Program-made: the position numbers and the translations under genes
Notes under the pieces: generated by a model
What the model was told of the DNA's origin: nothing
The model's database searches: none
Seen by the model: the letters and a program-made list of their open reading frames with translations, nothing else
Source of the DNA: Pseudanabaena sp. PCC 7367
Lineage (GTDB): Bacteria > Cyanobacteriota > Cyanobacteriia > Pseudanabaenales > Pseudanabaenaceae
Direction: 5' to 3'
DNA: 64,000 bases
Assembly (NCBI RefSeq): GCF_000317065.1
Contig: NC_019701.1
Location: forward strand, 4,288,001-4,352,000
Shown here: positions 51,690 to 52,895 of the stretch, in pieces
Position numbering within the stretch: position 1 is the stretch's first letter
Layout: each line of letters opens with the position of its first letter

Positions 51690-52031
51690 AGCTGATACTC
51701 TTTTTTAGGATTTTATATAGTAATCGATTTAATCAATTCTGCCATAGTTGAATCTGAATTGGCGGTGGATTTGGATTTTTTGCTGATTCAGTTTACAAAC
51801 CGTTATTTGTTGTGTTTGTAGGATCAGCCTACATTGACAAAGTTCAGCCAAATTAATTTGAGTTAGCCCCAAATTTGAGATGCGCAGAATCAGAATAAAT
51901 TGCTTCAAAAAATTACTTGGCAAGGCAGCCAAAACTAAACCACAACTGCTAGAATAGATTTCGCCGGAAAAATCTGACGGTGAATTGACAAAGGATACAC
52001 ACTTAGTTATCTTTGATAAAGTCACAAATAC
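51690..52031. other. Region before tRNA-Glu containing a promoter
   Basis: Apart from the promoter elements at 51985-52013 nothing is recognised. A minus-strand frame (51729-52070) overlaps the tRNA antisense and is not believed. Confidence 0.45.
51985..52013 (+). promoter_or_regulatory. Sigma-70-type promoter for tRNA-Glu
   Basis: TTGACA at 51985-51990 is a perfect -35; 17 bp further TATCTT at 52008-52013 is a -10 with four matches. Transcription would begin near 52020, about 12 nt before the tRNA 5' end. Confidence 0.6.
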
Positions 52032-52104
52032 GCCCCCATCGTCTAGAGGCCTAGGACACCTCCCTTTCACGGAGGCGACAGGGATTCGAATTCCCTTGGG
52101 GGTA
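52032..52104 (+). tRNA. trnE: tRNA-Glu (anticodon UUC)
   Basis: A 73-nt cloverleaf: acceptor GCCCCCA/TGGGGGT, D stem GTCT/GGAC, anticodon stem CCTCC/GGAGG around loop CTTTCAC (anticodon TTC), T arm AGGGA-TTCGAAT-TCCCT, discriminator A, no encoded CCA. It matches the well-known cyanobacterial and plastid tRNA-Glu. In these organisms glutamyl-tRNA also feeds 5-aminolevulinate, and thus haem and chlorophyll synthesis, through glutamyl-tRNA reductase. A good promoter lies upstream. Confidence 0.97.
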
Positions 52105-52160
52105 TTGGTTTGATTAGATTTCTTTGTTCAGTTTTTCTAAATATCTAAATAGGATAATGA

Positions 52161-52234
52161 GCCCCCATCGTCTAATAGGCCAGGACACTTCCCTTTAACG
52201 GAAGAAAAGGGTGATTCGAATTCCCCTGGGGGTA
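52161..52234 (+). tRNA. Glu-like tRNA with UUA anticodon (would read UAA)
   Basis: A 74-nt tRNA-like sequence 56 nt after trnE. Acceptor GCCCCCA/TGGGGGT is identical to tRNA-Glu. D stem is GTCT/GGAC with a 9-nt loop containing GG. The anticodon stem CTTCC/GGAAG is fully paired around CTTTAAC, so positions 34-36 read TTA. The T loop is TTCGAAT; T stem GGTGA/TCCCC has one T-C mismatch, or GGGGA with one bulged T pairs fully. Relative to trnE, pair 28-42 changed C-G to T-A and pair 49-65 changed A-T to G-C: both compensatory. Base pair A53-U61 is kept. It may be a functional suppressor-type tRNA, a non-decoding tRNA, or a decaying copy. Confidence 0.75.
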
Positions 52235-52247
52235 TTAAATAATAAAC

Positions 52248-52895
52248 ATGCTCACTTTTGCGATTCCGAAAGGAGCTTTGCTCAAGAGTTCCATTAACCT
52301 ACTTAAATCGGTGGGATTAGACTTCAGTGCGTTTCTGGATGATTCCAATCGCATGTTGCAAATTGTCGATCCCACTGGTAGCGCCAAGGCACTGTTGGTA
52401 CGCACCCATGATGTACCTGTTTATGTGGAATATGGCCAGGCGCAGGTTGGGTTTGCTGGTGACGATGTATTGCGTGAAAAGCAGCCCAGGGTAGCGCAAT
52501 TACTGGATCTGAAGTATGGCTATTGCCGTATGGCGATCGCGGTGCCCAAGCAAAGCCCCTATAAAACGCCGCTGCAATTGCCCTCCCATTGTCGGGTTGC
52601 CTCCAAATTTGTCAATTGTGCCAAAGCCTATTTCAAGAGCATCGATCTACCGGTGGAAGTAATTCCCCTCTATGGATCGGTGGAATTGGGGCCAATTACG
52701 GGCATGTCCGATGCGATCGTGGATTTGGTTTCCACTGGCAAAACCCTACGCGAAAATGGCCTGGTAGAAATCGAAGAATTATTTGAGAGTACCGCTCGCC
52801 TGGTGGTTAATCCCCTCAGCTATCGCTTGAATACTGACCAAGTGGCCACAATGGTTGATAAGCTCCGGTTTGTGGTAGAGAACCAATCGAGCTAA
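52248..52895 (+). CDS. hisG: ATP phosphoribosyltransferase, short form (HisG)
   Basis: A 215-residue HisG of the short type, which needs HisZ for regulation. Family stretches are [62 protein letters not shown] and [24 protein letters not shown]. It starts histidine synthesis from PRPP and ATP. The ATG lies only 13 nt after the UUA tRNA-like gene, with no Shine-Dalgarno in that gap apart from the G-run inside the tRNA acceptor, so the tRNA is in the hisG leader. Confidence 0.95.

Follow-up and report, generated by a model that had tools for sequence, protein, structure and literature searches.

Does a tRNA gene whose anticodon pairs with a stop codon read that codon, serve some other role, or merely persist after leaving the decoding set? 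The question is raised by a locus of Pseudanabaena sp. PCC 7367, in which the ordinary trnE gene is followed by a trnE-like second copy with a UUA anticodon and then by hisG. Below, positions refer to the window, the whole stretch of 64,000 nucleotides that was analysed. The second copy, with its UUA anticodon, is genuinely a paralogue of tRNA-Glu; today it probably decodes nothing or has barely any activity, as a pseudo-tRNA within a trnE–hisG transcript. The locus comprises the following features.

51985 to 52013, forward strand: likely sigma-70-type promoter of trnE (TTGACA-17-TATCTT; consensus scan, 10 of 12 matches)
52032 to 52104, forward strand: trnE, tRNA-Glu(UUC), the genome's only intact tRNA-Glu gene (ARAGORN; Rfam, 56.6 bits)
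52105 to 52160, forward strand: 56-nt spacer without recognisable terminator or promoter (sequence scan)
52161 to 52234, forward strand: trnE-like second copy with anticodon UUA, for the UAA codon (ARAGORN, Rfam and tRNA comparisons)
52195 to 52197, forward strand: anticodon TTA of the second copy, set by ARAGORN at gene position 35; trnE has TTC
52248 to 52895, forward strand: hisG, ATP phosphoribosyltransferase (open reading frame; Pfam PF01634, 179.8 bits)

The 74-nt second copy was called tRNA-Stop(UUA) by ARAGORN. Scanned directly with the Rfam tRNA covariance model (RF00005, cut-off 29), it scored 52.1 bits (E = 1.8e-9) in an end-to-end alignment over model positions 1–71 of 71, close to trnE and higher than the 49.0 bits of one functional tRNA-Leu in the same genome. 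A genome-wide Rfam search had omitted it, probably because neighbouring candidates were merged in that first look. The second copy is 84% identical to trnE, with an identical acceptor arm and discriminator A73. Its 7-nt anticodon loop, CTTTAAC, pairs with UAA as the loop of an ochre suppressor does; C36 has changed to A, and the UUC or CUC anticodon with C36 that marks a functional tRNA-Glu is absent. The coordinates, length, 56-nt spacing, shared acceptor arm, loop and TTA anticodon reported in an initial annotation were thus all confirmed. A whole-genome search revealed just two trnE-like genes. A sequencing or assembly artefact is so improbable as to be nearly negligible, given about ten differences from trnE, one compensated pair among them, in a two-contig genome of 4,885,680 bases with 100% completeness.

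Against the commonest cyanobacterial trnE, the second copy differs by about ten events. The D loop is rearranged (AGAGGCCTA to AATAGGCCA), the variable loop has changed from CGAC to AAAA, and pair 28-42 has changed from C-G to U-A. The T stem carries an extra U (GGGUGA versus UCCCC), either a bulged U or a U51×C63 mismatch, which bears out the one weak point previously noted there. Moreover, the tertiary (Levitt) pair 15-48 is broken, because A15 faces a purine at position 48 (A48 or G48) in place of the G15-C48 of trnE, a pair invariant across 13 distinct trnE sequences. No damage is seen in the acceptor, D and anticodon stems or in the T loop, and U34, U35, A37, U11-A24 and U13-G22 are kept. 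Under the bulge reading the molecule has A46 without residue 47, which is present under the alternative reading. The predicted fold is still a cloverleaf, weaker than that of trnE (-25.3 versus -30.0 kcal/mol). Among 35 tRNA sequences from the genome, the T-stem defect and purine 48 are unique to the second copy; the other 34 have a perfect T stem and Y48, including tRNA-Arg(UCU), which was missed by the motif script and read by eye as regular. The second copy therefore lacks the regular T stem and R15-Y48 pair.

The same genome also contains a 5′-truncated copy of tRNA-Gly(GCC) at G000:C2:1116622-1116677 (L290:823-878), which otherwise matches the intact tRNA-Gly(GCC) at G000:C2:1135076-1135147 (L154), 18.4 kb away on the same strand. 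Such a pair typically results when an element integrates into a tRNA gene. The truncated copy may be the odd tRNA-Gly without G1 and G3 that has been reported for Pseudanabaena sp. PCC 7367 (PMC5733544).

The initial annotation had described the second copy as structurally maintained, on the strength of two pairs, 28-42 and 49-65, that seemed to have changed together. Of these, 28-42 did change in the second copy, but the change at 49-65 belongs to trnE. Pair 49-65 is G-C in 64 of the 65 trnE genes from cyanobacteria that share this GGGA core, a count in which loci overlap and some genes appear twice; by distinct trnE sequences it is G-C in 4 of 13 and A-U in 9 of 13, most of the latter with other T-stem cores. 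Given that G-C is common at this position, the resident trnE with its A-U pair is derived there, not the second copy, which retains G-C. Working trnE genes have either C-G or A-U at 28-42, so the change in the second copy may date from a phase as a working tRNA-Glu. We further simulated free decay by random substitution at K = 8–11 sites of the ancestral trnE and scored 21 pairs. On average 3.2–4.2 of the 21 pairs were broken (2.8–3.7 with changes confined to the gene middle), versus about one in the second copy. Outcomes with no more than one broken pair and with one or more positions that had changed on both sides yet still paired made up 1.2–2.9% of trials, a figure that ignores indels and concerns a gene already picked as tRNA-like. 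As such outcomes are rare, selection probably acted on the fold during part of its history. These comparisons provide moderate, not strong, evidence of past constraint on the fold, and they point to constraint during much of the history of the second copy, possibly extending to the present. The description as structurally maintained holds in that the fold is better kept than under free decay, and it is overstated in that no Levitt pair remains and the T stem is defective.

Across the phylum, one of 386 cyanobacterial genomes, that of PCC 7367, carries a UUA loop in a Glu-type arm. The copy is absent from the sampled relatives, an outcome that the initial annotation had itself named as speaking against its proposal. 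No UUA-bearing Glu-type tRNA was found in viral contigs, and no published description of the gene was found in the literature. A phage origin was rejected, as the best phage tRNA-Glu is just 77% identical and the genome's own trnE is the nearest relative. Comparison of 33 family members with a trnE match revealed two identical tandem trnE genes in six Pseudanabaena genomes (G014, G019, G021, G025, G027 and G033) and a decayed second copy in two (G026 and G030); the remaining members are single-copy. The decayed copies (L137:1054-1127 and L141:1084-1157) have 6 of 21 pairs broken in G026 and 5 of 21 in G030, where about 6 are expected under neutrality for that number of changes; both carry anticodon UUU and received no ARAGORN or Rfam call. 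In the Pseudanabaena tandems, a hairpin-plus-T terminator separates the two copies; the 56-nt spacer here has no recognisable one. The tandem of G014 lies after a NUDIX gene and before a dapB-like gene (names from sequence), and the single trnE of G004 also adjoins a NUDIX gene. In PCC 7367, the NUDIX orthologue is 2.9 Mb from the trnE–hisG locus, whose neighbours are a ThiS-family gene and hisG. Given the differing neighbours, the duplication here was independent or has been relocated; descent from the Pseudanabaena tandem is unsupported by position, a relocated tandem being possible. As a separate observation, the intact tandem pairs (L125, L130, L132, L136, L138 and L144) are identical within each genome. 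The variant that they carry, with a CCTCC or CATCC anticodon stem, is not the same in every genome, a pattern suggestive of gene conversion or of recent duplications that occurred repeatedly.

We consider it somewhat better than an even chance that the second copy is a lineage-specific tandem duplicate of trnE that has left the decoding set as a partly degenerated pseudo-tRNA. This is supported by the family pattern, in which tandem trnE copies are otherwise identical or, as in G026 and G030, decayed. Against it stand the Rfam score near that of trnE, the mostly intact stems, and about one broken pair where three to four are expected.

If the second copy were active in decoding, the stop codons of the genome might bear its mark. 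General reassignment of UAA, which had already been dismissed in the initial annotation, is indeed excluded, since TAA is in use as a stop and undepleted. In 0.8 Mb of PCC 7367 (GC 46.1%), TAA ends 43.4% of 519 long open reading frames, compared with 40.8% in G004 (GC 48.1%) and 57.9% in G014 (GC 42.4%); its use thus lies between those of the two relatives, in line with GC content. Second in-frame stops after TAA are no commoner in this 0.8 Mb than stops in other frames. No well-aligned gene interrupted by TAA was found among 143 relatives' proteins with matches; internal stops occur in 4 of 367 alignments of relatives' proteins, all weak (22%–32% identity) and resembling distant paralogues or gap regions. 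TAA-ended reading frames with long in-frame extensions were considered as readthrough candidates and rejected, the long extensions reading as separate downstream genes with their own starts; the same pattern follows TAG. The initial annotation had retained weak or conditional readthrough; the 0.8 Mb examined showed no trace of selective or programmed UAA readthrough. This portion of the genome thus appears to make no general sense use of UAA and to bear no sign of defence against readthrough, although very weak readthrough could escape these comparisons. We also observed, at G000:C2 about 3637216-3637965 and over about 2.1 kb downstream, a reading frame that ends in TAG and continues in frame with about 700 codons of pentapeptide repeats. 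The repeats may belong to a neighbouring gene, or the TAG may have arisen by nonsense mutation.

A natural ochre suppressor of weak activity would receive Glu from the single GluRS and insert it with low efficiency at UAA and perhaps UAG, which would be tolerated or useful at a few sites. Such a role is unlikely. The complete UUA anticodon loop, the retained nucleotides and pairs listed above and, under the bulge reading, A46 without residue 47 argue for such activity, and there is a precedent in E. coli tRNA-Glu, which Raftery and Yarus reportedly made into an ochre suppressor in 1987. The genome encodes one GluRS and no GlnRS above cut-off, so that this GluRS presumably takes tRNA-Gln too and may tolerate A36; it is probably non-discriminating, already accepting C36 and G36. 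On the other side are the undepleted TAA, the lack of extra tandem stops and of a well-aligned TAA-interrupted gene, the damaged T stem and 15-48 pair, and C38, which should prevent the MiaA-type modification of A37 typical of A36 tRNAs. In addition, E. coli GluRS depends strongly on C36 (PMC9976931), which is lost here, and EF-Tu affinity is set by the T-stem pairs 49-65, 50-64 and 51-63 (PMC11231383). Standard-code bacteria do, if rarely, have stop-reading tRNAs, which are reported in 0.3% of 42,109 bacterial genomes (PMC13092985), and this favours the suppressor. Its fuller version, in which an inefficient Glu-inserting suppressor, weak in T stem and core, is made from a trnE–tRNA(UUA)–hisG transcript and kept for conditional readthrough of a few UAA codons in a free-living standard-code cyanobacterium, is very improbable.

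The position of the second copy allows another role. The hisG start codon, backed by alignment to relatives from residue 1, lies 13 nt 3′ of the tRNA-like gene. The TTGACA-17-TATCTT site is the sole forward-strand promoter match 5′ of hisG in the scanned stretch, in a region where about as many sites are expected by chance as were found; relatives have a similar TTGACA site ahead of trnE, and the position suits a trnE promoter. As a sequence scan found neither a terminator nor a further forward-strand promoter between trnE and hisG, we infer that trnE, the second copy and hisG are co-transcribed. The second copy might then be a tRNA-shaped element of the hisG leader, at which RNase P and RNase Z cuts set the 5′ end of the hisG mRNA or folding tunes expression. 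Its closeness to hisG, the lack of a recognised terminator or of a promoter besides that of trnE, and the partly conserved fold are consistent with this, as is the Bacillus cereus pseudo-tRNA inside a larger regulatory RNA (PMC3399842). However, in 80 other cyanobacterial loci the 1.5 kb upstream of hisG contain no tRNA, as judged with the program that finds both tRNAs here, so the arrangement is at best local; trnE alone would give the same cuts, and a search found no alternative structure or regulatory motif. We regard a leader function as quite unlikely.

The initial annotation had also proposed that a tRNA released from decoding could feed tetrapyrrole synthesis by providing glutamyl-tRNA reductase with glutamyl-tRNA. 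The A53-U61 pair and the acceptor stem are kept, but ordinary trnE has the same elements, so that A53-U61, the sole argument offered, gives the idea no specific support. Moreover, the gene is absent in relatives that are also expected to make tetrapyrroles, the tertiary core pair 15-48 is lost, and the second copy has no C36, on which strong charging depends in E. coli. Such a role is extremely improbable.

Returning to the favoured reading, a partly degenerated pseudo-tRNA, we propose a putative history of the second copy. Initially, trnE would have been duplicated in tandem, and the duplicate would for a time have remained a working, though redundant, tRNA-Glu, with pair 28-42 changing in concert as it has among functional trnE genes. 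Afterwards, constraint would have relaxed, and the single C36-to-A change would have ended the reading of GAA and GAG; since a single base separates UUC from a stop anticodon, no special cause is required for one to arise in a copy under relaxed constraint. At present, the second copy is probably co-transcribed with trnE into hisG and then excised by RNase P and RNase Z. Its reading of UAA would be weak or nil, because the 51-63 region of the T stem that aids EF-Tu binding is damaged, C38 rather than A38 should deny A37 its modification, and RF1 and RF2 compete. It would persist because its cost is small. If inert, the second copy is a snapshot of a duplicated tRNA gene leaving the decoding set, one base away from a stop-codon reader, whose structural damage would render it harmless. 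An active copy would instead represent a naturally occurring ochre suppressor that arose from tRNA-Glu in a free-living phototroph, and it would illustrate how a standard-code cell tolerates the reading of UAA.

Among known systems, the second copy is closest in sequence features to cyanobacterial tRNA-Glu(UUC), with which it shares the acceptor arm, A73, U11-A24, U13-G22 and the T loop, and from which it differs by UUA, the D loop AATAGGCCA, the variable loop AAAA, the T-stem defect and the absence of G15-C48. It resembles E. coli tRNAGlu-Suoc as a tRNA-Glu body reading UAA, a likeness that for the second copy comes from the anticodon alone; the E. coli molecule is engineered, whereas the second copy is natural and impaired in T stem and core. 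The decayed trnE copies of G026 and G030 are likewise tandem second copies downstream of trnE, but they have 5–6 of 21 pairs broken, carry UUU, escape ARAGORN and Rfam, and lie at a locus other than trnE–hisG. Pseudo-tRNAs with non-decoding roles are known, and the second copy is reminiscent of tRNA-Other of Bacillus cereus, a tRNA-like paralogue apparently outside translation and perhaps part of a longer RNA (PMC3399842). That molecule has a Trp anticodon, lies beside a genomic island and has been tested for function, whereas the second copy is known from its sequence.
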